From a virus: a DNA stretch of 64,000 nt. A program made the position numbers and the translations under genes. The stretch is from IMG/VR virus record IMGVR_UViG_3300043568_000598, positions 1 to 64,000 of that record; one strand, 5' to 3'. The notes beneath the pieces were generated by a model. That model was not told the origin of the DNA and ran no database searches. It worked only from the letters and a program-made list of their open reading frames with translations. Of this stretch, positions 16,613 through 64,000 are shown piece after piece. Position 1 is the stretch's first letter. Each line of letters opens with the position of its first letter.

Positions 16613-16615
16613 TTT

Positions 16616-17584: not shown

Positions 17585-17592
17585 CGAGATAA

Positions 17593-18583: not shown

Positions 18584-19204
18584 ATGCCTCAATTTTCGGT
18601 TTTTTTAACAGCACTAGAAAGCAAAATGCTAGAGCACACAGTGGCTAATCCTTCTGATTGGATAGATAATCTAGTAGAGTGGCGAGTACGAATTGCACAG
18701 GATGAATATCTTCCTACAGCAATCGAACAACTTAAAGCTAATGGTGCTACTACGATTCCAGGAACCCGCGACGCAATAATTCTAGCAGTGGATTTACCAC
18801 CAAAAAATCCTAACTGGACACCCGTCGAACGTGACGATCCTAACGATGACTTAACCGTGGAATATACATTTGATTTAGAAGATGATGATATTAAAATGTT
18901 AGCTTGGATGTATGAAAATCCTCATACGCACATTCGTGATTGGATAGCTGAACGTACTCAGATAGCTATTAAAGAAAAAGCAGATACAATTTTTAAAGAA
19001 CTGCTTACGGATCCCACATGGACAGATCCAATACCAACAGATCCTGCAGCCCTTATTGATCTTGTGGAACTTAAATCAGCAGCACAACATCTAGAAGAAA
19101 CTAGAGTGGCGATGCTGACAATGACAGCAGCATTAGCTAACACCACTGGCGAACCCTACCTTCCTCCTACTATTCCGTTTATGACCTACAAACATCATAA
19201 ATGA
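18584..19204 (+). CDS. Conserved-looking phage protein, function unknown
   Basis: 206 residues, mostly helical by composition, acidic in the middle (about residues 80-105, with DDPNDDLTVEY) and ending SYKHHK-like with MTYKHHK. It begins MPQFSVFLTALESKMLEHTV. No membrane segment, signal or catalytic motif is visible. It is the last gene of the plus-strand structural run and is followed by a strong terminator. It could be a fibre assembly factor (chaperone genes often follow fibre genes), but this rests only on position. Confidence 0.45.
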   Translation: MPQFSVFLTALESKMLEHTVANPSDWIDNLVEWRVRIAQDEYLPTAIEQLKANGATTIPGTRDAIILAVDLPPKNPNWTPVERDDPNDDLTVEYTFDLEDDDIKMLAWMYENPHTHIRDWIAERTQIAIKEKADTIFKELLTDPTWTDPIPTDPAALIDLVELKSAAQHLEETRVAMLTMTAALANTTGEPYLPPTIPFMTYKHHK

Positions 19205-19224: not shown

Positions 19225-19251
19225 AAAAAAGCACCCTAGGGTGCTTTTTTT
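19225..19251. terminator. Bidirectional rho-independent terminator
   Basis: GCACC-CTAG-GGTGC forms a perfect hairpin flanked by six A on the left and a run of T on the right, so it works on both strands. It ends the plus-strand fibre run and, in reverse, the 12-kb minus-strand halogenase/oxygenase operon. Confidence 0.9.
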
Positions 19252-20872
19252 ATTCTTTGTCTTTGTAGTGCTTAGTTTTTAAATACTGATAATGACTTGG
19301 ACACTTGTTAACAACATGCTCGTTTTTTGCTTTTTTCTGCCGCCAGTAGTTTTCTGTAGCAGTATTAAAAATTGCAGGAACAGTTCTAGCTGTGCCTATG
19401 TACAGCCCGTCGTATTTAATTTTTTCTAATGACATACGATTTACGGGCAACATATGATTGCCAACAAATATGTCAGGAAATCCTCCATCACCAGTACCCA
19501 GTTCGTGCGATCTCAGCATTTTACCAGCAATATCAGATGCTATAGTATGCAATTCAGACAACTCTTTATCTATCATGCGATAGTCTAATTCAATATTTTC
19601 AGTGACATGCTGCCAATAGGGAGTGTCTCTACGAGATGACAGTGTATAGTGACATGTGACAAAAGTTTTAAAACTTTGCATAGTGACATTGGCCATATAG
19701 TTAAACCAATCAACATGCATCCTATTGACTTGTTCGTTGTCTAAAGTTTGAAATAGCAATACTAACATTTCTTGAACACTGAACAATCCTGTGCTTTCCA
19801 AAGGTTCTATAAACGCATAGGACAATCCCACACCCACTACATTTTTTTCCCAGCATTTGTCATGTGTACCATTTTTAATTTTGACCAGTCTAAATTCTAA
19901 ATTGTCTGTACGATTGGGATCGTGATATGTCATTTTATCACTGTTCAAATAGTCTTTATATTCTTGCAGTGCATCTTCTTCACTGATAAATTTACTGCTA
20001 AACACATAGCCGCTGCCAATTCTATGATATAGAGGAATATTCCAAACCCAGCCATTGTTATAAGCTGTGCAGTTTGTGACGTTTTCCATCTCAAGTTCTT
20101 TATCGTGATATGGCACATGACAAGTCCATGCTCTGTCATTTGGCAGAAGATTGTTAAAACTTTCAAACGGCACACCCATGGTCTGTTCCAGCAACAGCGA
20201 TCTGAATCCAGTGCAGTCGATATACAAATCACCTTTGACTTTCTCGCCATTCTTCAACAGCAAGTAATCGATGTACCCATCTTCTTCCTTGACAATGCTT
20301 TCAATGTGCTGTTTAGTATGAGTAACTCCTGCAGGTATACACATCTGATCTCTTAGAAATTCACCAAACAATGCAGCATCCATGTGATACGCCACATCAT
20401 TTTTAAAACTGTAACCTTCTAACTTGTGTGAGGTGTTATCACATATTTTATTGTTGTAGATCAGAGGCATATTGCTGTACATACAATCATAGAAGTCATT
20501 CCATGGAGTATCCGGATATAGCAATTTTTTATGATACCAGTCTCTAATACCGTCTGTGGTATTTTTCTTATCTTTTAGTCCAAACGGATAGTAGAATGAT
20601 TCACCTTTTTTGTAAAAATCAGTAAATTTAATAGCCAGTTTGTGTGTGGCATTGCAGTGTGGCATCCAATCTTCGTCATTTAAATCTAAAAGATGAAGAA
20701 ATAAATTTAATGTTCCGAGCGTTGATTCGCCTACACCCACGGTAGGTACATCGGGGGATTCTACAAGTTCGAATTTAATGTTAGGAAACTTTTTTGATAG
20801 CAATGCGGCGCTCATCCACCCTGCACTACCCCCACCGACTATAACAATTTTTTTGATAGGTGTTTTCATCAT
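19250..20872 (-). CDS. Flavin-dependent (tryptophan-type) halogenase, copy 1
   Basis: 540 residues, the usual size for PrnA/RebH-type halogenases. These use FADH2, O2 and halide to form hypohalous acid that chlorinates or brominates an aromatic substrate, classically tryptophan. Diagnostic parts are all visible: the FAD-binding GGGSAGWM (residues 13-20), GVGEST (46-51), the catalytic Lys in the HKLAIKF segment (K78, aligned to PrnA K79), the GWVWNIP motif that excludes monooxygenation, and EPLEST holding the catalytic Glu. It is the last gene of the operon and overlaps the upstream PKHD-type oxygenase by 4 nt. It closely resembles the copy at 21411. No flavin reductase gene is seen in the window, so FADH2 must come from elsewhere. 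The true substrate is unknown. Confidence 0.9.
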   Translation of the reverse strand: MMKTPIKKIVIVGGGSAGWMSAALLSKKFPNIKFELVESPDVPTVGVGESTLGTLNLFLHLLDLNDEDWMPHCNATHKLAIKFTDFYKKGESFYYPFGLKDKKNTTDGIRDWYHKKLLYPDTPWNDFYDCMYSNMPLIYNNKICDNTSHKLEGYSFKNDVAYHMDAALFGEFLRDQMCIPAGVTHTKQHIESIVKEEDGYIDYLLLKNGEKVKGDLYIDCTGFRSLLLEQTMGVPFESFNNLLPNDRAWTCHVPYHDKELEMENVTNCTAYNNGWVWNIPLYHRIGSGYVFSSKFISEEDALQEYKDYLNSDKMTYHDPNRTDNLEFRLVKIKNGTHDKCWEKNVVGVGLSYAFIEPLESTGLFSVQEMLVLLFQTLDNEQVNRMHVDWFNYMANVTMQSFKTFVTCHYTLSSRRDTPYWQHVTENIELDYRMIDKELSELHTIASDIAGKMLRSHELGTGDGGFPDIFVGNHMLPVNRMSLEKIKYDGLYIGTARTVPAIFNTATENYWRQKKAKNEHVVNKCPSHYQYLKTKHYKDKE

Positions 20873-21411
20873 CTAAAATCCGGGCCGTGTATCCAACCTA
20901 CTATTGCATGTCTCACGCCTGTAGTCACTGAAGTTACTCTGTGTGTCATAAATGATGGAAAGATAGTTATCATGCCTTGTTGTTTTATTTTTGGATCTGA
21001 GATCGCTGGCATAAATTCTAAATCGCCTCCTTCGTATTCTGTAGGATCAGTGAGTTGAATAGTGAATGATAATTTTCTCACAGTGTCACCTGGTATAGAA
21101 TCTGTATGCCACACATAGTGATCACCTCTATCGGCTGAATATCTAAAAACAAACGGAGGATCTATTCTGTTGTAACCTTCTAAATGATACCGGTATGTTT
21201 GTGAATTTTTAAGAAATATTACCTTAAAAATTTTATCTTCAAGGTCTTCTCTTAGGCCTCGATTACATATTTGAACACTTCGAAATTGTTTGTTAGTTAT
21301 AAAATTTCCAAACTTTGCAACAGTACCTTCAACCCATTTGGTTGAATCTTCTATAATCTCTTTACACTCTTGAGCAGTAAAAAGAGGTATTGTAATCGTT
21401 TGGGCCACCAT
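20869..21411 (-). CDS. PKHD-type 2-oxoglutarate/Fe(II) hydroxylase
   Basis: 180 residues with the double-stranded beta-helix signature of Fe(II)/2-oxoglutarate dioxygenases: H102-x-D104 (in VWHTDS), distal H157 (in FMTHRVT) and R167 as the probable 2-oxoglutarate anchor. The EYEGGDLEF segment between them is typical of prolyl-4-hydroxylase-like PKHD enzymes such as PiuC. These couple 2-oxoglutarate decarboxylation to hydroxylation of a protein or small molecule. The gene lies between the two closely related halogenases with 1- and 4-nt overlaps, so the three are translated together. Substrate unknown. Confidence 0.85.
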   Translation of the reverse strand: MVAQTITIPLFTAQECKEIIEDSTKWVEGTVAKFGNFITNKQFRSVQICNRGLREDLEDKIFKVIFLKNSQTYRYHLEGYNRIDPPFVFRYSADRGDHYVWHTDSIPGDTVRKLSFTIQLTDPTEYEGGDLEFMPAISDPKIKQQGMITIFPSFMTHRVTSVTTGVRHAIVGWIHGPDFR

Positions 21412-23033
21412 TATTCTTTGCCATTATAGATATTTTCTTTAAGATACTGATAGTGCGATGGTGCAGTTTCCGTTAGAGAGTTGATATATTCTTTCTTTTG
21501 ATCCCAGTAGTCCTGAGTTTGACTGGTATAAAACTCTGGAACTGATCCATGCCTTGATTCGATCAACATCTTAACAACTGCCATTTGTGTGGCACTCACT
21601 GGTAGCACATGCATGCCTACTAAAATATCAGGCATGCCGCCCATGCTCTGATCTGCAGGCATACTATGTGTTTGGAGTAACTTGATTGCCAAATCGCCAG
21701 CTGCGGTAGGCGGTAACTGGTTTAGTTTTCTATCAAACATTAATGAATCCATTTCTATATTTTCAGTAACATGTTGCCAGTATGGAGTATCTCTGCGAGA
21801 GCTAAACACATAGTGATATGTTACAAAGTTCTTAAAACTTTCCATAACATAGTTGGTTACATAATTGAAATTATCAACATGAATTTTATTGATCTGTTTG
21901 TTATGCAGTGTTTCGCACAGTTTTAATAGTAATTCTTGAACACTCAACAAACCAGTGCTTTCTAAAGGTTCTACAAATGCATAGGATAGACCTATACCAA
22001 CACAATTTTTAACCCATGCTCGATCATGTGCTCCGTTTTTGATTTCAATTAATCTAAATTCGCAGAGTTTGCTTCTTGCCGGATTAAGTACCGTCATAGC
22101 CTCACTATCAAGATAGTCTTTGTATTCTTGCAGTGCATCTTCTTTGCTGATAAACTTGTCACAAAAAACATAACCACTGCCGATTCTGTTATATAGTGGA
22201 ATATTCCACACCCAACCATTGTTGTGTGCTGTGCAATTAGTAACGTTTTCCATTTCAATTTCTTTAATAGTGTATGGAACGTGTGTTACCCATGCATGAT
22301 TATTAGGCAAATGACTCGAATACGATTCAAACGGAACACCCATAGCCTGCTCCAGTAGCAATGATCTAAATCCTGTGCAGTCAATGTACAAATCAGCTTC
22401 GAGAGTATCACCGTTATTTAATTTAAGACCGCTAATGTACCCGTCGCCGTCTTTAAGTACTTGTTCAATATGTGCTTGCACATGCACTACCCCTGCCGGA
22501 ATACACAGTTTATCCCTTAAAAAGTTGCCGAACAGTGTGGCATCCATATGATAAGCAGAATCATTGCGCCAGCTGAATCCAGGAAGCTGCCCGTCTTTGT
22601 TATCAAATATTTTAGTTTGATAAATCATAGGCATTGAACTGTATACACTTTCATAGAAATCGTTAACGTCTAGTTCAGGATGCATTGTTTTCTTAACATA
22701 CCAATCTGTAGCACCTTGCTGTGTATTTTGCAAGTCTTTAATTCCAAAAGGATAATAAAAAGTTTCGCCTTTCTTATAAAAATCAGTAAATTTGATAGCT
22801 AATTTGTAAGTAGCATTGCAATACTCCATCCAGTCTTCATCTTTGAGACCCAGCAATCCTAGATACTGATTAATAGTTCCGAGTGTGGATTCGCCCACCC
22901 CGATAATTGGAACGTCTGGCGATTCAACCAGCGCAATTTCCATATCTGGAAATTGTTTTGATAACATAGCTGCACTCATCCATCCCGAACTGCCACCACC
23001 GGCAATAATAATACGTTTAATTGGTTTTTTCAT
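21411..23033 (-). CDS. Flavin-dependent (tryptophan-type) halogenase, copy 2
   Basis: 540 residues, close paralog of the 19250-20872 enzyme along its whole length. Key elements are intact: FAD-binding GGGSSGWM (residues 12-19), GVGEST (45-50), K77 in YKLAIKF, GWVWNIP, and EPLEST with the catalytic Glu. All residues needed for halogenation are present, so it is not a decayed copy. A candidate late element (ACTAAATA) and a GGAG-like site lie just upstream, suggesting that copy 2, the PKHD gene and copy 1 can also be transcribed on their own. The halogenation target is unknown. Divergence between copies 1 and 2 suggests different substrates or positions. Confidence 0.9.
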   Translation of the reverse strand: MKKPIKRIIIAGGGSSGWMSAAMLSKQFPDMEIALVESPDVPIIGVGESTLGTINQYLGLLGLKDEDWMEYCNATYKLAIKFTDFYKKGETFYYPFGIKDLQNTQQGATDWYVKKTMHPELDVNDFYESVYSSMPMIYQTKIFDNKDGQLPGFSWRNDSAYHMDATLFGNFLRDKLCIPAGVVHVQAHIEQVLKDGDGYISGLKLNNGDTLEADLYIDCTGFRSLLLEQAMGVPFESYSSHLPNNHAWVTHVPYTIKEIEMENVTNCTAHNNGWVWNIPLYNRIGSGYVFCDKFISKEDALQEYKDYLDSEAMTVLNPARSKLCEFRLIEIKNGAHDRAWVKNCVGIGLSYAFVEPLESTGLLSVQELLLKLCETLHNKQINKIHVDNFNYVTNYVMESFKNFVTYHYVFSSRRDTPYWQHVTENIEMDSLMFDRKLNQLPPTAAGDLAIKLLQTHSMPADQSMGGMPDILVGMHVLPVSATQMAVVKMLIESRHGSVPEFYTSQTQDYWDQKKEYINSLTETAPSHYQYLKENIYNGKE

Positions 23034-23057
23034 AAACTGTCCTAACTCCCGTTTGAA

Positions 23058-23065
23058 TATTTAGT
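23058..23065 (-). promoter_or_regulatory. Candidate internal late promoter (ACTAAATA)
   Basis: Reading on the minus strand, ACTAAATA lies 24 nt before the ATG of halogenase copy 2, in one of the few gaps of the operon (41 nt). It could give extra expression of the last three genes. Confidence 0.45.
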
Positions 23066-23074
23066 TGAGTACTT

Positions 23075-23707
23075 TTAGATGTAACCTACATCTTGGCTAT
23101 CGCCGTTTTTCCAATAATCTCTAAGAAGGTTAAATGATATGGAAATACGAACGTCGTCTGTTTTATTTCTTTTTACAGAATGTTGTAGCCATCCAGGAAA
23201 TAATAGTAATTTACCCACAGCTGGTTTAATATCATAGTATTTTTCAGCTATGTTTCCGAATGGAAATAGTTCTTGTTGCATCCACGGTATAGCATTCATA
23301 AGGCTAAAATTACCGTCGTTGCCAGTAGTTTGGTAATAATAAGTTCCGGAAATAAATGCATCGCTGTGCTGATGCCATTCTTGACCTTGGTCTCTGCCAG
23401 TTTTGTTGATCCAACTGTGTCGGAGAGCAATCGGCACAGGGTGCCATGATTGTGTTTGATCAATGTATTTTTTAACGTGTGTTTCGATGTATTTTTTTAA
23501 ATGTGTTAATTCAAAATCTTTAATAGAGTTAGTCCGAGATTTGATATTAGTCTGTACACCGTCCTCCCAACCAGGAGGATTATTAAAAATATCAGTTTGT
23601 TCTATTATAGGCAATTTTTTTCTTATCTCATCCTGCACTAGAAAAATTTCCTGCATTGTTCCCTGATGTTCGTATATCAATGTAGGAAATAGCGATACAA
23701 TAGGCAT
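23075..23707 (-). CDS. 2-oxoglutarate/Fe(II) oxygenase-like protein (TIGR02466 type)
   Basis: 210 residues starting MPIVSLFPTLIYEHQG, the typical opening of the putative 2OG-Fe(II) oxygenase family TIGR02466. Metal ligands are visible as H114-x-D116 (in WHQHSDAF) and H176 (in LQHSVKR), with R187 as the likely 2-oxoglutarate anchor. GKLLLFPGWLQHSV is the family's usual distal-His strand. The reaction is presumably hydroxylation of an unknown substrate. It follows the three unknown paralogs (23709-25854) and precedes the halogenase/PKHD/halogenase trio. Confidence 0.8.
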   Translation of the reverse strand: MPIVSLFPTLIYEHQGTMQEIFLVQDEIRKKLPIIEQTDIFNNPPGWEDGVQTNIKSRTNSIKDFELTHLKKYIETHVKKYIDQTQSWHPVPIALRHSWINKTGRDQGQEWHQHSDAFISGTYYYQTTGNDGNFSLMNAIPWMQQELFPFGNIAEKYYDIKPAVGKLLLFPGWLQHSVKRNKTDDVRISISFNLLRDYWKNGDSQDVGYI

Positions 23708-23708
23708 C

Positions 23709-24404
23709 TTACAGTCCTAAATCTTTTAAGATTTTTTTACGTTTAAAATATTGCCCATTAAGCGCAAACGGAACAATTCCGACTTGTTTGATATATTCTT
23801 CGTACGATACAGTGTGCATTGAGATTTTTATATCCGACTCGGACAACGGTATTACATGTGCTAATTCTTTACCGGCCGGAATTGTTAGGTCTTTAGGAAA
23901 CATAGTTTTAGGAACCAACAAGTTTACACTGGTAGTATGCTGATATTTGTAGTCGACTACGCCGTTGACTACAAATGGTTTAAATTCGTCATCATGCCAG
24001 AATGTATTAGTGTAAAGAAAATTAACCCCAGTTTTTTCTTTGATTTTCCAAGGACTATTAAGTTTTAAGTGATAAAATCCTTTGAGATATTCACCCCACT
24101 GGCTAGGATGATGTCCCTCAGCATCGTCTTCAGGAAACCATTTTAACGATCCGCCCTCTGTTCCAATCCAATAGTCTTCCCAACTTTGTAATATAAATCC
24201 AGTTCGATATAGTGTACTCACCCCCGGACATGTTTTCATAGTACCGCGCATAGGACCTTGATGTTTAACTGTCGTGGGTAAGTTTTTCCAAAAACTAGGT
24301 AATCTTTCTTCCGCATATAAAATAGGAAATAGTGTTTCTACTTCGGGATTGGCGGTGAAACAATCTAATACAATTTTTGATTTTTTAAAAAAGAATGAAA
24401 ACAT
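23709..24404 (-). CDS. Uncharacterised operon protein, paralog A
   Basis: 231 residues, the most divergent of three adjacent paralogs. Shared landmarks are P.FWKNLP near the start, a TMKTCPGVSTLYRTGFIL segment, SPWKIKEKTGVNFLYTN, a VNGVVDYKY segment and an IPAGKELAHVIPLSES segment. The distribution of PP(G)/F-rich strands suggests a compact beta fold. I know no proven activity for this type; such genes accompany halogenases and 2OG enzymes in aquatic viruses as I recall (possibly DUF6065), which needs checking. No clear metal-binding HxD triad is seen, so I do not call it an oxygenase. Role unknown. Confidence 0.5.
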   Translation of the reverse strand: MFSFFFKKSKIVLDCFTANPEVETLFPILYAEERLPSFWKNLPTTVKHQGPMRGTMKTCPGVSTLYRTGFILQSWEDYWIGTEGGSLKWFPEDDAEGHHPSQWGEYLKGFYHLKLNSPWKIKEKTGVNFLYTNTFWHDDEFKPFVVNGVVDYKYQHTTSVNLLVPKTMFPKDLTIPAGKELAHVIPLSESDIKISMHTVSYEEYIKQVGIVPFALNGQYFKRKKILKDLGL

Positions 24405-24409
24405 TATTA

Positions 24410-25120
24410 TTACCTATAAGTTTTTTTAGAATGAAATAGGTCGGCATATATACCAGCCCAATAAGTACTAAGCCTATATTTAAAACTAGACCTAGCCCAC
24501 TCGTCTTTATCTGAGATGTGTGTAATATTCATCTGCCAATCTTCTCGCTTGAAAGGAAAAACCACCACTAATGGGTCTCCGGGATTGATAGTAAATGATT
24601 TTTCTTTGACAAGGCCAACAAGGCCAATAGGCTCATCGTGTTTATCAGTATCAACTACTCCTGGAAAAATTGAAAATTCTTTTCTAAATCTGTAATAGGG
24701 ATCAAACAACATGCAACTATACCCCGGAGGAGTTTTAATATGCCATGGTTGATTTATTTTTAGATAATGATGCTTTTTGCCATCTTCTGCTTTGAACTGG
24801 GCTTGATGCCACGGATGTTTACCTACATGGTTGTCGGTATGTCTGCATCGATAATCAAATCCTGTAATAAAGTTTGCATCAACAAATTCTTTGATTTGAA
24901 TTTCATATGTAGCACGTATAACATATCCAGTGGTCATGTAATCCAATACTGGCACACATCGTTTAATCGTAGGGGTATGAGGTTTGGTATATGGTTCAAT
25001 TTCTGGTACTTCAATGGGAGTATCTTTATACCAGTCTGGAATTACTTTCCCAGCAGGCATAGGCGGAAACATGTCAATTGCTTCTAAATCACTGCCGGAA
25101 AATGTTATTAATTTGGTCAT
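24410..25120 (-). CDS. Uncharacterised operon protein, paralog B
   Basis: 236 residues, clearly related to the 25117-25854 gene. Conserved points are the IPDWYKD start region, a TIKRCVPVLDYMTTGYVIRA segment (about 51-70), INQPWHIKTPPGYSCMLFDP (about 122-141), a FPGVVDTDKHD segment, and a PGDPLVVVFPFKREDW segment near residue 180. Its paralog has the same landmarks at nearly the same spacing, so both come from one duplication. The three genes are packed with 4-6 nt spacing or overlap and sit in the middle of the halogenase/oxygenase operon. This suggests a shared substrate-handling or partner role, which is inference. Confidence 0.5.
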   Translation of the reverse strand: MTKLITFSGSDLEAIDMFPPMPAGKVIPDWYKDTPIEVPEIEPYTKPHTPTIKRCVPVLDYMTTGYVIRATYEIQIKEFVDANFITGFDYRCRHTDNHVGKHPWHQAQFKAEDGKKHHYLKINQPWHIKTPPGYSCMLFDPYYRFRKEFSIFPGVVDTDKHDEPIGLVGLVKEKSFTINPGDPLVVVFPFKREDWQMNITHISDKDEWARSSFKYRLSTYWAGIYADLFHSKKTYR

Positions 25121-25854
25121 TTAAATTGTTTCTCAGAATGGAATAATTTTTTATATGCATTAAACAAATAATATTTTGATTTGTTTAGTATAGTATCTGC
25201 AGTGAATTCAGATTCCCAGTTGTCTCGTTTAAATGGAATAATTTGTACTAACGGATCGCCGCAATAAAATCTAACCTCAGTATTAACTTCTGTTAAGTAT
25301 CCTACCACTGGAATCTTTTGATTAAACTTATCTGTGTCGATAATAGCAGGCATGATACTGAATTGGTTTTGAAACAAGTAGTAAGGCTGCACCACTAAAC
25401 AACTGTAACCCGGGGGAGTCTGCACTGTCCACTCGGAGTTAAATCGAAAATAGTTTGTTAAATTTTTCTTATCTGTTGATCGCATTGGGCATGTACTTTC
25501 AGCATAAATGCCGACAGCATTGTTAGGATGTAGTCCCTGCATGTCATCAGTTTTTTTAGAATCATTTATTTTGTTGCGTACTGTATTCGCGGTAACAATA
25601 TTCATTTTAGGAACAAAATTTTCAATCTTTTCACTGACTCTAACTTCGTAAGTGGCTCTTAGAATATATCCGGCTGTTATAAAATCTTCAACCGGAACAC
25701 AGGCTCGAATACTTTTTAAAGCATTTTCATCGAAGCTGTATGTGTCCTTGGCTTTAGCCATATTTGCATACCACTCTGGCAGATATTCTCTAGCCGGTAT
25801 AGGCTTCCAGTGTTCTAATGCAGTCTTATCGTCTATGTTAAATTTAATCTTCAT
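25117..25854 (-). CDS. Uncharacterised operon protein, paralog C
   Basis: 245 residues with the same signature as paralog B: IPAREYLPEWYANM at about 18-31, a SIRACVPVEDFITAGYILRA segment, NSEWTVQTPPGYSCLVVQPY, a MPAIIDTDKFN segment and YCGDPLVQIIPFKRDNW. It overlaps paralog B by 4 nt and the upstream oxygenase by 4 nt. There is no signal peptide or membrane helix, so it should act in the cytoplasm of the infected cell. Function unknown. Conservation of the PPGYSC and GDPL...PFKR.(D/N)W motifs across paralogs marks the residues most likely to matter. Confidence 0.5.
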   Translation of the reverse strand: MKIKFNIDDKTALEHWKPIPAREYLPEWYANMAKAKDTYSFDENALKSIRACVPVEDFITAGYILRATYEVRVSEKIENFVPKMNIVTANTVRNKINDSKKTDDMQGLHPNNAVGIYAESTCPMRSTDKKNLTNYFRFNSEWTVQTPPGYSCLVVQPYYLFQNQFSIMPAIIDTDKFNQKIPVVGYLTEVNTEVRFYCGDPLVQIIPFKRDNWESEFTADTILNKSKYYLFNAYKKLFHSEKQFK

Positions 25855-26453
25855 CTATTAGATTTGTCTTCGTCTATTTCTATTAACCATGTGGTTAATA
25901 TATATTTGTTTTTGTCCCCAATAGGAGGATTTCCCCTGTGTGTATGAGTCCAATCAGCTGGCCATATTAACAGTTTATTTTTCTTGGGAACGATCCTAGT
26001 ATTTTGATATAAAAATTCTGTTTCACCTGCATCGTCTATATCGTTCATGTAAAGCTGTATCACAATTCTTCTTTTAGAATCCTCTCCAAGTGCTTCATAA
26101 TGCCACTGATGAAAGCCACCACCTGGAACAATTTTTTTCATCTTGATCTGTTCTACTTTATAAGATCTATCTTGTAGTATGCTAAACTTGTCAGTGTAAA
26201 TAGGCATTATTTTTTGCCATAATACTTCAAGAAAATGATTTACATATTGTGGATGTAGTGTACTAATTACTTTTGGATCCAGCATATAAAGCTGTTCATC
26301 ATCCTTCCAGTGTTTAGGAACGGTATCCTGTTGGTGCAATGATAAGTCGGCTATTTTATCGTAGTAGTTGATAACATCTTGAAAGTATGAGTTTTGAAAG
26401 TAGTTTTCAAATACGCCAATAAATCCTTGAAATTCATATTTTTCAAAATTCAT
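25851..26453 (-). CDS. 2-oxoglutarate/Fe(II) oxygenase-like protein
   Basis: 200 residues with a dioxygenase-like core: GGGFHQWHYE (H115, H118, E120) as candidate proximal ligands, then a MNDIDDAGETEFLYQ segment typical of the beta-helix fold, then WPADWTHTHRGNPP (H170/H172) as the distal ligand region and K183 or nearby as a possible 2-oxoglutarate contact. The carboxylate ligand would be Glu rather than the more common Asp. The overall pattern (GxTEFxxxxxxxxPxxGxxxxWPAxWTHxHRG) matches 2OG oxygenases found in marine viruses and bacteria. Substrate unknown. Confidence 0.75.
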   Translation of the reverse strand: MNFEKYEFQGFIGVFENYFQNSYFQDVINYYDKIADLSLHQQDTVPKHWKDDEQLYMLDPKVISTLHPQYVNHFLEVLWQKIMPIYTDKFSILQDRSYKVEQIKMKKIVPGGGFHQWHYEALGEDSKRRIVIQLYMNDIDDAGETEFLYQNTRIVPKKNKLLIWPADWTHTHRGNPPIGDKNKYILTTWLIEIDEDKSNR

Positions 26454-27115
26454 TCTATTTCTAACCTATAATTACCAGCCAACGAAATCCTAACATCGTC
26501 AGTGCTGTAAAACGGATATACTTGATGTTGCAACTCTGCAGGGAATATACAAATCTTTCCTTCAAGTTTTTTATCAACTGGAATAGGATAGTTATCAATT
26601 TTTCCAAGAGCATCAACGTACACAAACTCAAAATTAGCAGTGCGATTTTTAATCAAATCAGGATTGGCAATGTTATCTTTTTCGTCAGCTATCGTGTATG
26701 GAATAGTAGTCCATATAACAAAACTATAAATTCCGCTATGATTGTGTAACGGCAAGAACTCACCGCGCCGTTGAAGATTTACCCATATGCGTTCAAGAGA
26801 TAATTTAATTTCTTTGTTTTCAGCGTTTGCTACAGAATTAAATAATCTGTCAAAATATTGATATTTGTTCTCGTAGACACCTAATAATTTTAGTACTTCT
26901 TTATCTATCAAAGAAATTAGCTCGTCTGATAATTTATAATTTATTGAATAGCCTTGTTGTTTTTTGTGATAAAGTCTTAATAAATCTTTAGACTCATCTA
27001 GCTCTGTTGAAAAATCCGTAAGGAACTTATTTGTTTCTTGTTTTATTCGTTGGAATATAAACGGATTGAATGTATCCAAATATATACCAACGTTGGGTAG
27101 GCTATAAAAACTCAT
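26450..27115 (-). CDS. 2-oxoglutarate/Fe(II) oxygenase-like protein
   Basis: 221 residues. The C-terminal half has LPLHNHSGIYSFVIW (H124-x-H126 region), an EGKICIFPAELQHQVYPF segment (distal H197) and DVRISLAGNY (R209), the layout of TIGR02466-like Fe(II)/2OG oxygenases. The proximal motif is H-N-H instead of H-x-D, so the iron site may differ or use other residues. The N-terminal ~100 residues are helical and unique to this copy. It overlaps the downstream oxygenase by 4 nt. A 37-nt gap separates it from the upstream halogenase. Activity is inferred from fold-level motifs only. Confidence 0.7.
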   Translation of the reverse strand: MSFYSLPNVGIYLDTFNPFIFQRIKQETNKFLTDFSTELDESKDLLRLYHKKQQGYSINYKLSDELISLIDKEVLKLLGVYENKYQYFDRLFNSVANAENKEIKLSLERIWVNLQRRGEFLPLHNHSGIYSFVIWTTIPYTIADEKDNIANPDLIKNRTANFEFVYVDALGKIDNYPIPVDKKLEGKICIFPAELQHQVYPFYSTDDVRISLAGNYRLEIE

Positions 27116-27152
27116 ACTAATAATTATCTAAAATTAATAGCAGCGTTTGCAA

Positions 27153-28682
27153 TTATGATTGCTTACTGGTTCGACGAATAAAGTTGATAAAATCGGAATA
27201 AGTCATGTTCTCTTGTACACCACTATCTATGATTTTTTGATACTCGTTAATAACACCGCTGACATCTGCTAATCCTATAATAGGAACGGTATTTCCAGAA
27301 AATACTTTGGCCGAAGTCTCTGGTGTGATATGTCCTAGTCCGGCTAACACAAAGCTCCAGAGTCCCATGTCGGGGGCCGCAAATGATATATCAAGATCTC
27401 GATTTGCAGGCATTTGTGTTTTACACATGGTTAGTAAATTATCAACGAATTCAGTTTTGGTTTTTCCTGAACTAACATACTTCCAAAACTCACTGTCAGT
27501 TCTGCCTCCCATGTAATGAGCGATTAGAAATTCTTTAGTAGCATCATACAATTTAGCAGTACGTCGATTATAGCTGTTTCTGCTGCCCGGATTCAGCGTG
27601 TCTTCTAACTTAGGTTTTAAAAATTCAAAAACAAATGTCATCAGTTGAGCGATAGTAGTGTGTATGCTGGTAGCTTCTAACGGCTCTGCAAATGCAGCAG
27701 CGAGCCCGATTGCCAGACAATTTTTCTCCCAGACATTTTCTAGTCGTCCGGTGTCAAATTTTAGTACACGTATTGGATCAATGGGTCTGCCTAACGTGGT
27801 TTCTATTTCTGCTTGAGCTTGATCTGCAGTGATAAAATTATCATCAAACACATAACCGCAGCCCTTGCGGTGCTGACTCGGTATCTGCCACATCCATCCA
27901 GATGATTGAGCCCATGCAGTAGTGTACAACTCTGGAATTTCATTATCTTCAAACGGCAATAAAAACGGCATTGCAGAGTTGACTGGTAAATTTTCTTTAT
28001 AGCTGATCCACTTAGCATTTAATTTTTTCATCAATACTTGTTTAAATCCGCTGGCATCAATAAAAAAGTCTCCATCGATCAGTTTTCCAGACTTTAGCAA
28101 TACAGATGTTATATTTCCATTCGCAGAATCTAAATTTACATCTAACACTTCATCGTCAACTACAGAAACTCCTGGAGTTTTCAAAGTGACTTTTTTAAAG
28201 TATTTGCCAACCGCATGTGCATCGAAGTGCAATGCGGTTCCTATGCTGTCAAAGGAAAATGTTTTTTTATTAAAATTAGAAATTTTACGTTCTATTTTTT
28301 GACCTATGATTGAACTTCGGTGAACATTTGCTGGATCTGTGCTATGGTAGTAGGCGAAAATATAATCAACTATGTTATCTGATGCAGGGTTGCCACCGAT
28401 CGGGCCCATATAACTTTCACCTACTGTTTTCCAATCTTTGTGATGAATTCCGTATTTTAATGTGGCTCCAGTTTCTTGGAAAAATTCCAGCAGATTGCAA
28501 CCAAAGTCCCATGATTCATTTTTTAAAATAGATGTGAGCAGTCCAGTTGATCCTTCACCAGCACCCACAATACCAATAGCTGACGACTCAACTACAGTAA
28601 GAGTGTGTCCTAGGTTAGCTTTGCTGATCATTAAAGCAGCTATCCATCCTGCGGTACCGCCGCCTACTATAACAATATTCAT
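27153..28682 (-). CDS. Flavin-dependent (tryptophan-type) halogenase, divergent copy 3
   Basis: 509 residues, distinct from the two 540-residue copies but with every hallmark: FAD-binding GGGTAGWI (residues 7-14), AGEGST (41-46, in place of VGExT), a Lys in TLKYGIHHKDW (K76, matching PrnA K79), GWMWQIP, and EPLEATS with the catalytic Glu. It belongs to a different branch from copies 1 and 2 and probably acts on another substrate. It overlaps the upstream oxygenase start by 1 nt. A pair of an oxygenase and a halogenase is repeated at both ends of this operon. Confidence 0.9.
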   Translation of the reverse strand: MNIVIVGGGTAGWIAALMISKANLGHTLTVVESSAIGIVGAGEGSTGLLTSILKNESWDFGCNLLEFFQETGATLKYGIHHKDWKTVGESYMGPIGGNPASDNIVDYIFAYYHSTDPANVHRSSIIGQKIERKISNFNKKTFSFDSIGTALHFDAHAVGKYFKKVTLKTPGVSVVDDEVLDVNLDSANGNITSVLLKSGKLIDGDFFIDASGFKQVLMKKLNAKWISYKENLPVNSAMPFLLPFEDNEIPELYTTAWAQSSGWMWQIPSQHRKGCGYVFDDNFITADQAQAEIETTLGRPIDPIRVLKFDTGRLENVWEKNCLAIGLAAAFAEPLEATSIHTTIAQLMTFVFEFLKPKLEDTLNPGSRNSYNRRTAKLYDATKEFLIAHYMGGRTDSEFWKYVSSGKTKTEFVDNLLTMCKTQMPANRDLDISFAAPDMGLWSFVLAGLGHITPETSAKVFSGNTVPIIGLADVSGVINEYQKIIDSGVQENMTYSDFINFIRRTSKQS

Positions 28683-29314
28683 TAATATCCTTCTTTATTA
28701 TCATATGTTAACATTACGTTCATAGCAACAACAACTCGTAAGTTACCAGTTGTGTGTGCAGGCGTATGGTGATCAAGCCACGATGGAAAAAGTAACAAAT
28801 CGCCTTCCTCTACCAGCATCTGTTTTTTGTCCGGCCAATACATTTCAGGCAATTCATTTTTATTTTTTGTTGGAATAACACTTTTTATCATTCTGGCATT
28901 GGGATTCAAAAATACAGTTCCAGAATTTTCGTTGTCTAGTGTTACGTAGTGTACAGCAGACCACTGTATGGTCCTTGGCCCCCCAGTGTGATCATGCGGA
29001 AATTGGGAAGTAGAATTAGTCATCATTCCGTACCAGCAGGTTACTTTAAAAGTCCACCCTTTAGAAAAATCAATACCGGTAAATTCTAAAAATTCTCGAA
29101 TGTCATCTTCGTAAAATTTTGATACTATCATCCATGGTATTTTGTGAGCGCCCGGAACATAATCAGTGTAGGCATTAGTCACGGTGTCATTGACTCCATT
29201 CCTAACATATTGCGGATACACATTGTCCATGAGATATTTTTTAATCTTATCGTGATTGCGCACTTTCATCTTGACCAAGTTAACTGGAAATAACGGAACA
29301 GGAGTTATCGACAT
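28682..29314 (-). CDS. 2-oxoglutarate/Fe(II) oxygenase-like protein
   Basis: 210 residues. SQFPHDHTGG carries the H107-D108-H109 cluster (proximal metal site; the exact pair is unclear), the following SAVHYVTLDNENSGTVFLNP is the typical core strand pair, and the VEEGDLLLFPSWLDHHTP segment carries the distal His (H182/H183), with R193 near the end as a probable 2-oxoglutarate contact. The domain covers most of the protein, so there is no extra module. It is translationally coupled to the 509-residue halogenase (stop and start overlap). Confidence 0.8.
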   Translation of the reverse strand: MSITPVPLFPVNLVKMKVRNHDKIKKYLMDNVYPQYVRNGVNDTVTNAYTDYVPGAHKIPWMIVSKFYEDDIREFLEFTGIDFSKGWTFKVTCWYGMMTNSTSQFPHDHTGGPRTIQWSAVHYVTLDNENSGTVFLNPNARMIKSVIPTKNKNELPEMYWPDKKQMLVEEGDLLLFPSWLDHHTPAHTTGNLRVVVAMNVMLTYDNKEGY

Positions 29315-29315
29315 G

Positions 29316-30026
29316 TTAGTCTATCCATTTAGAAAAATTATCAATGATTGGCTGCTCAAACTCATATCGATCAATAAAAAATAATAGTGTAGTACGAGGT
29401 TCTTTAACATTCACTTTGAAGGTATTTGGTCTATGCCATAGATTAGAATCATATGCTATTAGTCTATTATACGTGTTTCCTATCCGAATGGTTTCTTCAA
29501 AATGTGTGTGATTATTTTTTAAATCTTGTTTGTATTCTTCTGTTACTATACTGGTGGTGTTAAACAGTTTTCTAGATGGAAAATCAGGTACAGAAAAATC
29601 TTCTGCACCTTTCTTTAAGAAGATCGAAGTACCACTATCAAAATTTGTTTCGTTGGGATTTAAATATACCAATCCGGCCAAGGTGACGTCGTCGTTGTGT
29701 ATCCATCCAATGTTTGCATCTGCGTCGTCATATTGTTCGTTGATATGAAAACTTATGTGTATTACAAATTGTGAAATTCCTGGGAATACTTCTCTGGCAA
29801 TTTTTTTAGCAAAAAACACTGCAAAATTCTTAGTTTCCTCGTCGGTGGATTCTAATAAATTAATTGTGCGTTTTCCAGGATAACGATCCGATTTAGTATA
29901 TTCTTGGTGTTGTGCAAGAGCTAACACCTTGTTTGGATTATTGAAGAAATTATTTCTACAAACAATTACTTCCTTTAGCGGGTGTTTAGTTTTATCAAAA
30001 TTGTATATGGTCTGTGTATTACTCAT
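29316..30026 (-). CDS. DUF6445-like / 2OG-oxygenase-fold protein
   Basis: 236 residues. It shows an iron-site layout: GWIHNDDVTLAGLVYLNP (H110-x-D112), then SGTSIFLKK, then RLIAYDSNLWHRPN (H198) and RTTLLFFIDR (R211). This matches a group often annotated only as DUF6445, believed to be related to prolyl-hydroxylase-like enzymes; I recall the family from memory and could not search. Fold and metal residues support a dioxygenase, but activity is unproven. It lies between two 2OG enzymes with a 1-nt gap and a 4-nt overlap. Confidence 0.65.
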   Translation of the reverse strand: MSNTQTIYNFDKTKHPLKEVIVCRNNFFNNPNKVLALAQHQEYTKSDRYPGKRTINLLESTDEETKNFAVFFAKKIAREVFPGISQFVIHISFHINEQYDDADANIGWIHNDDVTLAGLVYLNPNETNFDSGTSIFLKKGAEDFSVPDFPSRKLFNTTSIVTEEYKQDLKNNHTHFEETIRIGNTYNRLIAYDSNLWHRPNTFKVNVKEPRTTLLFFIDRYEFEQPIIDNFSKWID

Positions 30027-30604
30027 GCCAATTTCCTACTAAGATTGAATACCATGGTAATGCGGCCTTCTGTATTATGTGTTTGAGGAACAACATGTGG
30101 TATCCACGACTCCCACATTAAAAGCAGTCCTTTTTTTGGAGTGATGGAAATTTCCTCAATATTAGTAGCTGTATCTCCTAACCTAGGCAACATGACAAAA
30201 TTTCTAAACGGTCTTGGATCGCTTATAATTAACGGCGAAGATCCTTCGGGAACTTGAAGATATAGCAAACCAGATAAAATAGAATTAGGATGTGTATGTG
30301 ACTCGTGATAGTTTCCTTCAAACATCTCACTTACAAATACTTGTGTTTCAAAATTAATTTGTTGCTCGTCGTACCCTAGTTGTCTAAGGTAGTTTCTAGC
30401 AGTTTTATGTACAAGATTTTTAAATGGTTCTATGTCAGGTTGTTTTCCAAGCTGCATGGAAGTATCGAATGTATTTTTATAACCCCATCGGTGTCTTGCA
30501 TAATCTGGATCGCTTAGGTATTTTTTAGCTACAGGCAACATTGCATCTGCTAATATCAGATGTAATTCAGTAAGTACTGCTGTTGGAAAATGATACTGAA
30601 TCAC
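30023..30604 (-). CDS. 2-oxoglutarate/Fe(II) oxygenase-like protein (TIGR02466 type)
   Basis: 193 residues. FEGNYHESHTHPNSILSGLL is the family's proximal site (H103, H105), PKKGLLLMWESWIPHVV the distal site (H170), and GRITMVFNLSRK the 2-oxoglutarate-contacting strand (R181). It is a compact single-domain enzyme of the putative TIGR02466 family, whose members often have H-x-H instead of H-x-D. It overlaps both neighbours by 4 nt. Its protein or small-molecule target is unknown. Confidence 0.8.
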   Translation of the reverse strand: MIQYHFPTAVLTELHLILADAMLPVAKKYLSDPDYARHRWGYKNTFDTSMQLGKQPDIEPFKNLVHKTARNYLRQLGYDEQQINFETQVFVSEMFEGNYHESHTHPNSILSGLLYLQVPEGSSPLIISDPRPFRNFVMLPRLGDTATNIEEISITPKKGLLLMWESWIPHVVPQTHNTEGRITMVFNLSRKLA

Positions 30605-31152
30605 ATAGGTCCTTGTGGATTACGTTGTAGATCAAATGCCTGTAAATAATTTGGACCATCAATAGTCACGTAATGCAGAAACACTTGAATACACTCAGTT
30701 CCTTGAAAAGGATCACGCCAGTGGTAGGATTTAGCACCTTTGTAAATTACAGCATCTCCTGGATTTAATGACACACTATCTGTTTCGCCATCGGGTTTTG
30801 TGAAATGTATAGGCCACTTATCACCTGCAAGATTCACACTTACACTAATTTCACAAGCTTCGGCATCGATATGAGATTTCAATTCGGCACCTCGTTTATA
30901 CCATCTGCCATAACAATATGTGGGATATAATCTTTCACCTACTAAGTCATTCATATAAAAAATCTTTGAAATTAGCAACTGGTGTACTATTTGACTATTG
31001 TATAATGCCGGTGAGCCGGCAACTTGTGGATCTGCTTTAGCGAACGTTTTAATGCATTCTTTTTTAAAATTGTTTGCAACAATGCTGGCTGCGATAGGAT
31101 GCAAAAAATCTTCTACTACAAAATAATTGTTTTGTTGTAAATCAGCATTCAT
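30601..31152 (-). CDS. 2-oxoglutarate/Fe(II) oxygenase-like protein
   Basis: 183 residues with H94-x-D96 (in LKSHIDAEACEISVSVNL), a GDAVIYKGAKSYHWRDPF strand with distal H144, and an unusual C-terminal strand (CIQVFLHYV) without the usual Arg. The spacing between proximal and distal His (50 residues) is typical of prolyl-4-hydroxylase-like enzymes. It starts right after groES (1-nt gap) and is therefore the first oxygenase translated. The first ~80 residues are helical. Substrate unknown. Confidence 0.75.
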   Translation of the reverse strand: MNADLQQNNYFVVEDFLHPIAASIVANNFKKECIKTFAKADPQVAGSPALYNSQIVHQLLISKIFYMNDLVGERLYPTYCYGRWYKRGAELKSHIDAEACEISVSVNLAGDKWPIHFTKPDGETDSVSLNPGDAVIYKGAKSYHWRDPFQGTECIQVFLHYVTIDGPNYLQAFDLQRNPQGPM

Positions 31153-31153
31153 T

Positions 31154-31456
31154 TTAGTCAGGTTCTACAATACACCACACATCGGATTCTGGCAAACACC
31201 AATATATTTCGTTGCCGACGACTATTTTAGACCCTGCAGCCGGATGGCATAAGATTTCATCTCCGGCCTTAACAGTCATTGGTATTAAAACTGCTGTTTT
31301 TTCAGAATATTTTCCAGGGCCAACTGCTATAACTGTGGCTTTAGATGTTCGCTCGTCTACAGCCGCAGGAGCAAGTACAATACCGCCAGAAGATACTTGT
31401 TCTGGCTCGTGTCTCTTAACTAAAATTCTATCATGCGCTGGTTTTAAAACTGGCAT
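31154..31456 (-). CDS. groES: GroES-type co-chaperonin
   Basis: 100 residues, standard length for GroES (Cpn10). Visible parts are a KPAHDRILVKR opening strand, the mobile-loop tripeptide region SSGGIVLAP (residues 22-30) that docks to GroEL, the KATVIAVGPGKY segment, and an AGDEILCHPAAGSKI segment near the C-terminus. It would cap host GroEL, as T4 gp31 does for capsid folding. It is the first gene of the halogenase/oxygenase operon, behind a perfect T4-late element and an AAGGAG ribosome site. Being in this operon rather than beside capsid genes is unusual and may mean that it helps fold fibre or operon proteins. Confidence 0.93.
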   Translation of the reverse strand: MPVLKPAHDRILVKRHEPEQVSSGGIVLAPAAVDERTSKATVIAVGPGKYSEKTAVLIPMTVKAGDEILCHPAAGSKIVVGNEIYWCLPESDVWCIVEPD

Positions 31457-31504
31457 TTATTTCTCCTTAAATTGATTAACATATGCTCTCTTGGTGAAGT
31501 AGGG

Positions 31505-31512
31505 TATTTATA
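31505..31512 (-). promoter_or_regulatory. T4-type late promoter (perfect TATAAATA) for the groES operon
   Basis: On the minus strand the exact T4 late consensus TATAAATA lies about 50 nt before the groES ATG. The leader includes TTAAGGAGAAATAA, a strong ribosome site. This is the only clear promoter at the head of the 12-kb operon, which suggests late expression, together with virion assembly. Confidence 0.7.
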
Positions 31513-31587: not shown

Positions 31588-33672
31588 ATGACTGCTCCTA
31601 TTAAAAACCTACGAGTAATACCCCGAGAAGCCGATTTTTTAGATAGAAAAATTGGCTCATCTGGTGAAATCTTTTATGACCGCGATCAAAATACACTAAG
31701 ACTGTATGATGGAAATCTATTAGGGGGAATTGTTCTTGCCAAGACAGATTTAACCAATATATCCAATGCTGTGTTCCTAGCCAAAGCTACTTCAGCAGGA
31801 TTCAGTGGCGGAGTGCAGTCAGGCGTGGCTGGAAAAATAGCCTATTATCCGTCAAATGGTTCTCAAGTCAATGACTTAACTGCTTTAACATGGTTAGATG
31901 ACTCGACCAATACGCTGGTGTTATCAGGTGTAATAGATATCACAGGCCAAAAAAATCGCATCAGATTCCATTGGGATACTCTAGCAGATCTTAACGCAGA
32001 AGTATCTCCTGTAGACTATCACGGCATGGTAGCACATGTGCATGACACAGGCAAACTGTATTATGCTCATAACGGTGCTTGGGTGCCTGTGGCAGCAGAA
32101 AGCAGCCTCCCTAACTCATTTAGTACCATTGCAATAGCCGGACAGCCATCAGTGACTGCAGACACAACCGCAGATACTCTTACACTTGTAGCTGGTACTG
32201 GTATTACACTGACCACAAATGCTGGCACAGATACCATTACCATTACAGGCACAGCCAGCACAGGCAATATAACCTTTGCGGCCAACACCATAGACAGCAC
32301 AGATAGCACAGCTATCACAGTGACTCCGGCAGTAAATTTTGAATCAGATGTTGTAGTAGGTAATGAAATTGTATTCGCAGACGGTTCAAGACAGAGTACT
32401 TCTGCTGTTGGTGTACCAGGACCACAAGGTGAACAAGGTCCACCTGGGGCTTCAGGAGCAGGCACGGGCGATGTACTCAGTGCCGGCGGCGGCTATGTGG
32501 ACAATAGGATTGTTCGCTACGATGGAACCACAGGCACAATCATACAGGTCAGTAGTGCCAGCATATCAGATGCTGGCCTGCTCACCGCTACCAGCTTCAG
32601 TGGTAACGGCAGTTTAATCACAGCTCTAAATGCCACTGAATTAACCAGCGGTACTATACCTAATGCCCGCTTTCCAGCTACTTTGCCTGCAACATCAGGT
32701 GTCAATCTAACCGCACTAAATGCCACACAACTAACTTCAGGCACAGTACCTGACGCACGATTCCCAGAGACTCTGCCAGCAACATCGGGTGTCAATCTAA
32801 CCGCACTGAATGCCACCCAACTGACTTCGGGCACTGTACCTATAGGTCGTATAGGAGCCACAGGCACACCTAGTGCCAGCACCTATTTAAGAGGCGACAA
32901 CTCTTGGGCCGAGGCCACAGGGGGGAGTGCTTCAGACAGCTTTAGCACCATAGCGGTAGCAGGACAAAGTTCAGTGGTTGCTGATTCGGCTACAGACACA
33001 TTGACTTTGGTAGCAGGATCAAACATAACCATAACCACAAATGCCGGTACAGATACCATAACTATTGCTGCTGCAGGTGGCGGGACTGCATCCGATAGTT
33101 TTGCTACAATTGCAGTAGCAGGACAAAGTTCAGTGGTTGCTGATTCGGCTACAGACACATTGACTTTGGTAGCAGGCACCGGTATTTCAATCACCACTGA
33201 TGCCAGCACAGACACATTAACTATAAACAGCACAGTCACAGCAGGCGCCACAGCATTCACGGGACTTAGTGATGCAGTGTCTGCTTCATTAACTATAGAT
33301 AAGATCTATCTACCTGCGATCACTATGCTGGTAGTAACCAATAACGGAGCCAGTGCATATCGATTTGATCAATACGGTGCTTCCGACGATCCTACAATTT
33401 TTGCTATCAATGGTACTACAATAGCATTTAATTTGCAAGCAACTGGACATCCATTTTTAATTCAAGATAACACAGGTACTAATTTCAACACAGGACTCGT
33501 GCATGTAACTACGGCAGGAGTAGTGACTACAGGCTCCTCAGCACAAGGCAAAGATTCAGGAACATTGTATTGGAAGATTCCCGACACTGCATCGGGTAGT
33601 TATAGATATCAGTGCGGAAGTCATGCTGCTATGATAGGAACTATCACAGTGAAAAACTTTGGCAGTATTTAA
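31588..33672 (+). CDS. Fibre protein with collagen-like stretch and cupredoxin-like C-terminus
   Basis: 694 residues. The N-terminus (MTAPIKNLRVIPREADFLDR) resembles an adapter found in other fibre proteins. Short repeats follow, then GPQGEQGPPGASGAG near residues 275-289 (collagen-like Gly-X-Y), then three ~28-residue repeats with ALNATQLTSGTVPDARFP (about 350-425), then two copies of an AVAGQSSVVADSATDTLTLV unit encoded by an exact 62-bp repeat. The C-terminal ~100 residues look like a cupredoxin: H621 in ATGHPFL and C676-x2-H679-x2-M682 in QCGSHAAMIGT, the type-1 copper ligand set. It is divergent from the oxygenase/halogenase operon. It is probably a trimeric tail or adhesin fibre. Copper binding is inferred from ligands only. 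Confidence 0.75.
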   Translation: MTAPIKNLRVIPREADFLDRKIGSSGEIFYDRDQNTLRLYDGNLLGGIVLAKTDLTNISNAVFLAKATSAGFSGGVQSGVAGKIAYYPSNGSQVNDLTALTWLDDSTNTLVLSGVIDITGQKNRIRFHWDTLADLNAEVSPVDYHGMVAHVHDTGKLYYAHNGAWVPVAAESSLPNSFSTIAIAGQPSVTADTTADTLTLVAGTGITLTTNAGTDTITITGTASTGNITFAANTIDSTDSTAITVTPAVNFESDVVVGNEIVFADGSRQSTSAVGVPGPQGEQGPPGASGAGTGDVLSAGGGYVDNRIVRYDGTTGTIIQVSSASISDAGLLTATSFSGNGSLITALNATELTSGTIPNARFPATLPATSGVNLTALNATQLTSGTVPDARFPETLPATSGVNLTALNATQLTSGTVPIGRIGATGTPSASTYLRGDNSWAEATGGSASDSFSTIAVAGQSSVVADSATDTLTLVAGSNITITTNAGTDTITIAAAGGGTASDSFATIAVAGQSSVVADSATDTLTLVAGTGISITTDASTDTLTINSTVTAGATAFTGLSDAVSASLTIDKIYLPAITMLVVTNNGASAYRFDQYGASDDPTIFAINGTTIAFNLQATGHPFLIQDNTGTNFNTGLVHVTTAGVVTTGSSAQGKDSGTLYWKIPDTASGSYRYQCGSHAAMIGTITVKNFGSI

Positions 33673-53002: not shown

Positions 53003-53013
53003 TTAGACTAAAC

Positions 53014-53041
53014 ATAGAGTGTGGGGCAACTCACACTCTAT
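53014..53041 (+). terminator. Hairpin between gp32 and uvsX (partial terminator or attenuator)
   Basis: ATAGAGTGTG-GGGCAACT-CACACTCTAT, a perfect 10-bp stem followed by only a short T-rich stretch (TTCTC). Likely a weak terminator that lowers uvsX relative to gp32, or an RNA stability element. Confidence 0.6.
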
Positions 53042-53063
53042 TTCTCAACAGGGCAAAAAAATA

Positions 53064-62304: not shown

Positions 62305-62313
62305 ATGTGTTCC

Positions 62314-63637: not shown

Positions 63638-64000
63638 TGCCAATACGCTTCTGTTCTTTGAACTTTTAGATCTTCAGGTTTACTACGACCTAATTTCTTT
63701 CTACCACCTTTGAGATGATCTAACCATGCGCCCCATTGACTATTAATTAATGGGTGTCCTTCGCCTGACGTCATTCCCGGTGCTGGGCGTAGATCATGCA
63801 AGTGTGCTGCCCAATCTAGTTGTCGCATCTGCGGAAATTTTACTCGTACCGCATCGAACACAAAACTGTCATGCCACTCAGCTAACTGAAAAATTCCTTG
63901 CTCTGCTTGATCATAGAATCTTTGGAATTCTTTGAGAAAAAGTTGAATGTTAGGTGATCGCAGATTCATAGCATACAGGCCGCATTCCGAATATTTGCCT
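63634..64000 (-). CDS. Partial gene, likely glycan-related, 5' end beyond the window
   Basis: The frame is open to the window edge: before the first ATG at 63969 it reads GKYSECGLYA without a stop, so the true start is outside. The visible part includes MNLRSPNIQLFLKEFQRFYD, QLAEWHDSFVFDAVRVKF and PGMTSGEGHPLINSQWGAWL. I do not recognise the family with certainty; it is translationally coupled (ATGA) to the GT25 gene and so is probably part of the carbohydrate unit. Confidence 0.6.
   Translation of the reverse strand, partial: GKYSECGLYAMNLRSPNIQLFLKEFQRFYDQAEQGIFQLAEWHDSFVFDAVRVKFPQMRQLDWAAHLHDLRPAPGMTSGEGHPLINSQWGAWLDHLKGGRKKLGRSKPEDLKVQRTEAYWQ

Follow-up and report, generated by a model that had tools for sequence, protein, structure and literature searches.

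The operon described here, which would encode a set of halogenases and oxygenases, is inherited together with three tandem tail-fibre genes and not with the phage backbone, an association that we regard as the interesting and main new result of this analysis. Aquatic phages commonly carry genes for halogenases and oxygenases, which are usually labelled as metabolic or antibiotic genes without evidence, and their linkage to specific fibre genes supplies a testable substrate. No prior description of this linkage was found in the open-licence full-text literature; since the coverage was restricted to that literature, an earlier description may exist. The parts list was already known from isolated cyanophages. 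An earlier sequence-only reading, which was aware of no phage pathway this large in the literature, overstated that novelty: a 10-gene cluster with halogenase, 2OG-oxygenase and carbamoyltransferase genes, read as a metabolite or capsule pathway, has been described in S-SSM6a (Iyer et al. 2021, PMC7824862), and several isolates carry comparable clusters.

The phage and the organisation of the operon

The window, that is, the whole stretch of 64 kb that was analysed, belongs to an 85-kb virus record, from a freshwater phage, with a T4-like organisation, including tail sheath, sheath stabiliser, terminase, and UvsX-like and ssDNA-binding proteins. By its terminase the phage is not a cyanophage, the nearest isolates being the Pseudomonas PA5oct-like jumbo phages (54%), and the search for relatives of the window found no near-identical isolated phage. 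A cellular origin of the cassette was considered and set aside, as a single genome scan returned just one weak match, from Atlanticothrix silvestris (34%), without the cassette.

The operon consists of 15 minus-strand ORFs (19250-31456) and lies next to the convergent fibre genes (Table 1). Overlaps of 1-4 nt are found at eight of its 14 junctions, in line with the earlier description, with gaps of 1-5 nt at four and of 41 and 37 nt at the remaining two. Family profile searches assign its products to three flavin-dependent halogenases, eight proteins of the 2OG-oxygenase type, three DUF6065 proteins and one GroES. The gene list of the sequence-only reading is confirmed for the halogenases, the oxygenases and GroES, with the count of eight oxygenases holding only if g12 (DUF6445) and g14 (phrog_2954) are included, and it had left the three DUF6065 proteins unnamed.

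Table 1. Features of the operon and of its flanks (positions in the window).
Feature	Position	Strand	Evidence
Three tandem fibre genes, linked to the cassette; candidate substrate	15668..18561 (15668-16612, 16616-17584, 17593-18561)	+	fibre scans
206-aa protein between fibres and operon	18584..19204	+	no Pfam match; homologs beside many fibre genes
Symmetrical terminator, 11-pair stem, between operon and convergent fibre genes	19225..19250	.	stem symmetry
g1, predicted flavin-dependent halogenase, 62% identical to g3	19250..20872	-	PF04820 1.2e-109; motifs
g2, 2OG oxygenase PF13640, weakly PKHD-type	20869..21411	-	1.8e-13; NCBIfam Fe2+ dioxygenase below cut-off; HxD..H..R
g3, predicted flavin-dependent halogenase, closest solved relative VirX1	21411..23033	-	PF04820 3.4e-111; VirX1 E 2e-119; motifs
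g4, 2OG oxygenase PF13759/TIGR02466	23075..23707	-	6.4e-21 and 8.6e-23; HxD..H..R
g5, DUF6065/phrog_7084 protein	23709..24404	-	phrog_7084 1.8e-18
g6, DUF6065/phrog_7084 protein, putative dUTPase-like fold	24410..25120	-	phrog_7084 3.6e-42; model pLDDT 89.5; dUTPase matches
g7, DUF6065/phrog_7084 protein	25117..25854	-	phrog_7084 2.6e-36; DUF6065 just below cut-off
g8, 2OG oxygenase PF13640	25851..26453	-	1.1e-9; HxE..H
g9, 2OG oxygenase PF13759	26450..27115	-	1.1e-9; HxH..H..R
g10, predicted flavin-dependent halogenase, divergent clade	27153..28682	-	PF04820 2e-93; motifs
g11, 2OG oxygenase PF13759	28682..29314	-	3.5e-13; HxH..H..R
g12, DUF6445 protein with 2OG-type residues	29316..30026	-	3.6e-9; invariant H110, D112, H198, R211
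g13, 2OG oxygenase PF13759	30023..30604	-	3.6e-20; TIGR02466 above cut-off; HxH..H..R
g14, 2OG oxygenase, predicted prolyl-4-hydroxylase fold, phrog_2954	30601..31152	-	invariant H94, D96, H144; model
g15, GroES-like co-chaperonin	31154..31456	-	PF00166 4.7e-22
TATAAATA, T4-late-type promoter element ahead of groES	31505..31512	-	count not above chance; conserved ahead of groES in L006 and L013, both diverged
Baseplate/fibre connector past the operon head, short collagen-like run	31588..33672	+	phrog_677 4.6e-46; 6 GXY triplets

The operon is headed by a perfect T4-type element, TATAAATA, which is the basis for calling it late and suggests such an expression. The element, correctly reported by the sequence-only reading, is not rare: it occurs twice in the 64-kb window, against 4.8 times expected, so that an argument from statistical excess was rejected and its presence alone is no proof of a promoter. 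What does support a promoter is its conservation directly ahead of groES in L006 and L013/L014, whose surrounding sequence has diverged; it is absent where groES comes after another same-strand ORF (L009-L012, L026). The terminator claimed for the other end was recovered, at the convergent junction with the fibre genes. Among the cassette ortholog pairs, those with a usable dS mostly give a dN/dS of 0.02-0.2, and these comparable pairs are under purifying selection; many pairs gave no estimate, and the values of 1.01, 0.42 and 0.61 come from nearly identical or saturated pairs and are uninformative.

Predicted enzymes and their partners

The PF04820 scores of g1, g3 and g10 range from 314 to 373 bits (E 1e-93 to 1e-111), against a curated cut-off of 21, and the flavin-binding GxGxxG, the catalytic Lys, and the WxWxIP and PLE(S/A)T motifs are intact in all three when aligned with VirX1, a halogenase that is itself one gene (CPUG_00131) of the Syn10 cluster. 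They are predicted to be flavin-dependent (tryptophan) halogenases and would be active in halogenation. The substrates of characterised flavin halogenases are mostly small molecules. An extra, shorter (~400 aa) and divergent halogenase-like gene, absent from the window, is found between g2 and g1 in L006, L010, L013 and L026, and the related phages G032 (L259, L260) and G006 (L257) have about five halogenase matches each around their fibre genes.

The eight 2OG-type proteins belong to PF13640 (two), PF13759 (four), DUF6445 (one) and phrog_2954 (one). The HxD/E...H metal triad is present in g2, g4, g8 (as HxE), g12 and g14. In g9, g11 and g13, all of them matching PF13759, HxH...H is conserved in its place, which makes their chemistry less certain. 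The model of g14 (pLDDT 92) has a double-stranded beta-helix fold, with a bacterial prolyl-4-hydroxylase (4iw3, E 4.7e-10) as its best match and the viral collagen hydroxylase vCPH among the others, and it resembles AlkB by fold too. This 2OG-oxygenase fold contradicts the public label of phrog_2954, 'ferrochelatase', and the PHROG labels 'minor coat protein' and 'DNA endonuclease V' on oxygenase-like genes were given no weight. A profile search against solved structures gave no significant match for DUF6445 or g14. The motifs and metal-ligand residues kept in these enzymes, in conjunction with the dN/dS values, speak against a loss of the active sites and support the enzymology of the chemical modification system proposed from the sequence alone. 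Further 2OG-type genes lie off the operon, at record positions 72164-73412 (L085), one matching PF13759 and one with a weak PF13640 match only.

The DUF6065 proteins g5-g7 are three paralogs (23709-25854). The best PDB match of the g6 model is a dUTPase (E 9e-4, probability 1.00, TM 0.32 by query and 0.61 by target), a partial match that suggests a dUTPase-like fold. The single dUTPase motif that was checked, motif 3, has a putative counterpart in PG(I/V)(V/I)DTD, with Asp157 being D in 40/49 and E in 9/49. Homologs occur in about 49 haloarchaeal virus records. In the two examined (Hafunaviridae, L273 and L274), the DUF6065 gene is convergent with tail-fibre/adhesin genes about 1 kb away, and the adhesin of these viruses controls host range (PMC8651126). 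The family is the same as in the window, which has three copies, whereas these two records have one, and their annotation shows neither a halogenase nor an oxygenase within 7 kb of it. The groES gene, also named by the sequence-only reading, is missing from the more distant cassettes.

Linkage of the cassette to the fibre genes

The gene order of the operon is shared by about 27 IMG/VR contigs. A scan anchored on the sheath stabiliser, surveying the site between stabiliser and fibres in relatives, revealed a hypervariable hot spot, occupied by the cassette itself in some relatives, by a different mix of its families in others, and by neither in the rest. G012 and G008, whose identities to the window are 96% and 90% in the stabiliser and 93% and 88% in the sheath, have neither the fibre trio nor a window-type cassette, whereas G009 (44% and ~55%) combines fibre genes of 76-81% identity with cassette genes of 66-98%. 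Both are retained in G009, G010, G011, G041, G042 and G001, and thus in phages with only 44-57% identity in the two tail proteins. Measured against the backbone, fibres and enzymes thus travel together, which is evidence of an association and not of what the enzymes act on. The 15-record table behind this comparison is not unbiased, as some records were picked through the halogenase.

With the fibre trio as anchor, a second scan returned full-length orthologs at 26 loci (L168-L193). The cassette is present in all 22 contigs that run past these orthologs (all except L175, L176, L184 and L188), and in 3 of 52 loci with weak or partial fibre similarity only, a contrast that is approximate because many of the 52 weak-match contigs are short. 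Co-occurrence with fibre genes in other genomes, the check suggested by the sequence-only reading, is thus borne out, which lends indirect support to its idea of an action on fibres.

Trp and His are more frequent in the fibre domains beside window-type cassettes (4.3 and 5.3%) than in their weaker homologs (1.7 and 2.3%), these being related sequences compared with phylogeny ignored. A Trp-rich fibre as a general halogenase target was rejected, since the enrichment belongs to one related clade only and the G004 fibres, beside four halogenases, contain 0.4% Trp; nor is Trp abundant in the Gly-rich fibres that accompany cassettes of other lineages. A collagen-like substrate was also discarded, with only one run of six triplets, in the connector, and none in the window fibres.

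Possible functions of the cassette

The explanation we favour, to which we give nearly an even chance, is that of a mobile fibre-linked cassette whose late-expressed enzymes modify tail-fibre adhesins. We infer its catalytic activity, substrate, order of events and benefit as follows. A T4-type late promoter would drive a single transcript as far as the terminator that separates the operon from the convergent fibre genes, and the enzymes would act on the neighbouring tail-fibre/adhesin proteins before or during assembly. The oxygenases would hydroxylate fibre side chains (Pro, Lys, His or Asn type residues), the halogenases would halogenate aromatic residues, and the DUF6065 proteins would be fibre-associated partners, possibly trimeric like dUTPases. 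The changed surface chemistry could then alter host binding, stability or receptor escape. This explanation is favoured by the double dissociation between G012/G008 and G009-type phages, by the cassette in 22/22 fibre-anchored loci, by cyanophage clusters lying behind fibre genes and DUF6065 genes lying beside haloarchaeal adhesin genes, by the predicted prolyl-4-hydroxylase fold of g14, with vCPH among its matches, and by the mostly low dN/dS values. Against it, joint inheritance would also be expected if the hot spot were swapped as a whole, as one host-interaction island, with the enzymes acting elsewhere. Many halogenases of phages stand alone, at a distance from fibre genes, and the small-molecule substrates of most characterised flavin halogenases and the lack of a general Trp enrichment in the fibres also weigh against it.

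A soluble halogenated and hydroxylated metabolite, made from an amino acid or host precursor and acting as a toxin, signal or antibiotic for infected cells, is an unlikely product, even though such a product was proposed for the related S-SSM6a cluster (PMC7824862), the S-CREM1 authors suggested a PrnA-like antibiotic protection, and VirX1 takes many free aromatic substrates (PMC8407142). The ORF list and the profile searches revealed no scaffold-building (NRPS/PKS) or peptide-precursor gene in the 15-gene operon, nor is an export gene visible in it. Enzyme sets differ between phages, and the operon has no carbamoyltransferase. With the families shuffled among relatives, independent site modifications fit better than a fixed pathway, and neither a metabolite nor antibiotic protection explains the tie to particular fibre genes. 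That tie could arise if fibres and enzymes co-vary by matching one host, as would be the case if the enzymes modified the host surface (capsule, LPS, outer proteins), for example in superinfection exclusion. Capsule decoration is the alternative offered by Iyer et al. (PMC7824862), sugar-type genes occur in the fibre hot spot of some relatives (L252, S-SSM7), and the same genome has a minus-strand sugar cluster at 59956-63643 (RmlD-like reductase, polysaccharide-biosynthesis epimerase, methyltransferase, galactosyltransferase-like protein and GT25 glycosyltransferase) and a carbamoyltransferase (PF02543/PF16861) at record positions 75777-77246 (L086:777-2246). However, these glycan genes are far from the operon, little time would be left for a surface change after a late promoter, and the recognised oxygenase types are closest to protein/amino-acid hydroxylases, so we also consider this improbable.

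It is much less probable that the oxygenases deplete 2-oxoglutarate to steer host nitrogen regulation, or serve nucleic-acid repair or modification, as put forward for cyanophages (Sullivan et al. 2010, PMC3037559). The AlkB resemblance of g14 and the dUTPase-like fold of DUF6065 would agree with a role in repair, but g14 is closest in fold to a protein prolyl hydroxylase, the replication genes are elsewhere (52034-54143), and relatives with near-identical tail genes do without the set; the halogenases, the number of divergent copies and the fibre linkage would all be left unexplained. The hypervariable site could also be a mere accumulation point, where oxygenase and halogenase genes gather without joint function. 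To this we give the least credence, in view of the gene order and strong purifying selection kept across diverged contigs and of the tight operon structure.

Related clusters in other phages

Modification of fibres may extend beyond this phage, which we consider possible at somewhat less than an even chance: exchangeable cassettes across phage lineages, comprising halogenases, hydroxylases and a dUTPase-fold partner, would halogenate and hydroxylate tail-fibre adhesins, adding a chemical diversification of receptor binding to that by sequence, and VirX1 would naturally act on a fibre protein of its phage. If true, enzymes encoded by a virus would halogenate viral structural proteins, and VirX1, a biocatalyst whose structure and activity are known but whose native substrate is not stated in the sources consulted, would gain a natural role.

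More distant halogenase loci contain mixtures of the cassette families. In the isolated cyanophages Syn9, Syn10, S-CREM1, P-RSM6, P-TIM40 and S-RIM44, halogenases adjoin 2OG arrays, most of them with DUF6065, and the clusters lie directly downstream of the genes for fibres and Gly-rich fibre tips. In several records, the PF04820 and PF13759 genes show more clustering (within 20 kb) than random placement would produce, S-RIM44 not being significant. The homologs are thus not always scattered singly, although singletons away from fibres also exist (S-PM2, S-MbCM6, S-B64). The Syn10/Syn9 cluster (Kyanoviridae) resembles that of the window in halogenase motifs and clade, in DUF6065 adjoining the halogenases, in its many 2OG genes with DUF6445 and phrog_2954 members, and in its position behind fibre genes; the window differs in its three halogenases, its three DUF6065 genes, groES at the head, and an operon convergent with the fibres.

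The S-CREM1 (10 genes) and S-SCSM1 (24 genes) 2OG arrays likewise contain multiple copies of PF13640 and PF13759, and were treated as metabolic genes in the parts of those papers available to us, where fibre linkage is not discussed. Virion proteomics of S-CREM1 covered 14 proteins and reported no such modifications, the paper being silent on whether they were sought. In S-TIM4, the 2OG gene ORF23 was mutated in host adaptation (PMC6224464); it sits in the baseplate region and not in a fibre cassette, and was set aside as support. The S-SSM6a cluster shares with the window an amino-acid halogenase and several 2OG/cupin hydroxylases, whereas the window operon lacks its carbamoyltransferase, HemK-like methylase and sugar phosphatases; profile searches gave no match to the carbamoyltransferase and HemK-like methylase core among the 15 operon genes. 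S-SSM7, a near relative of S-SSM6a, has its cluster placed between the fibre genes and gp13. Carbamoyltransferase genes are also found in the fibre hot spot of the relatives L246 and L264, adjoining a short divergent halogenase in the latter.
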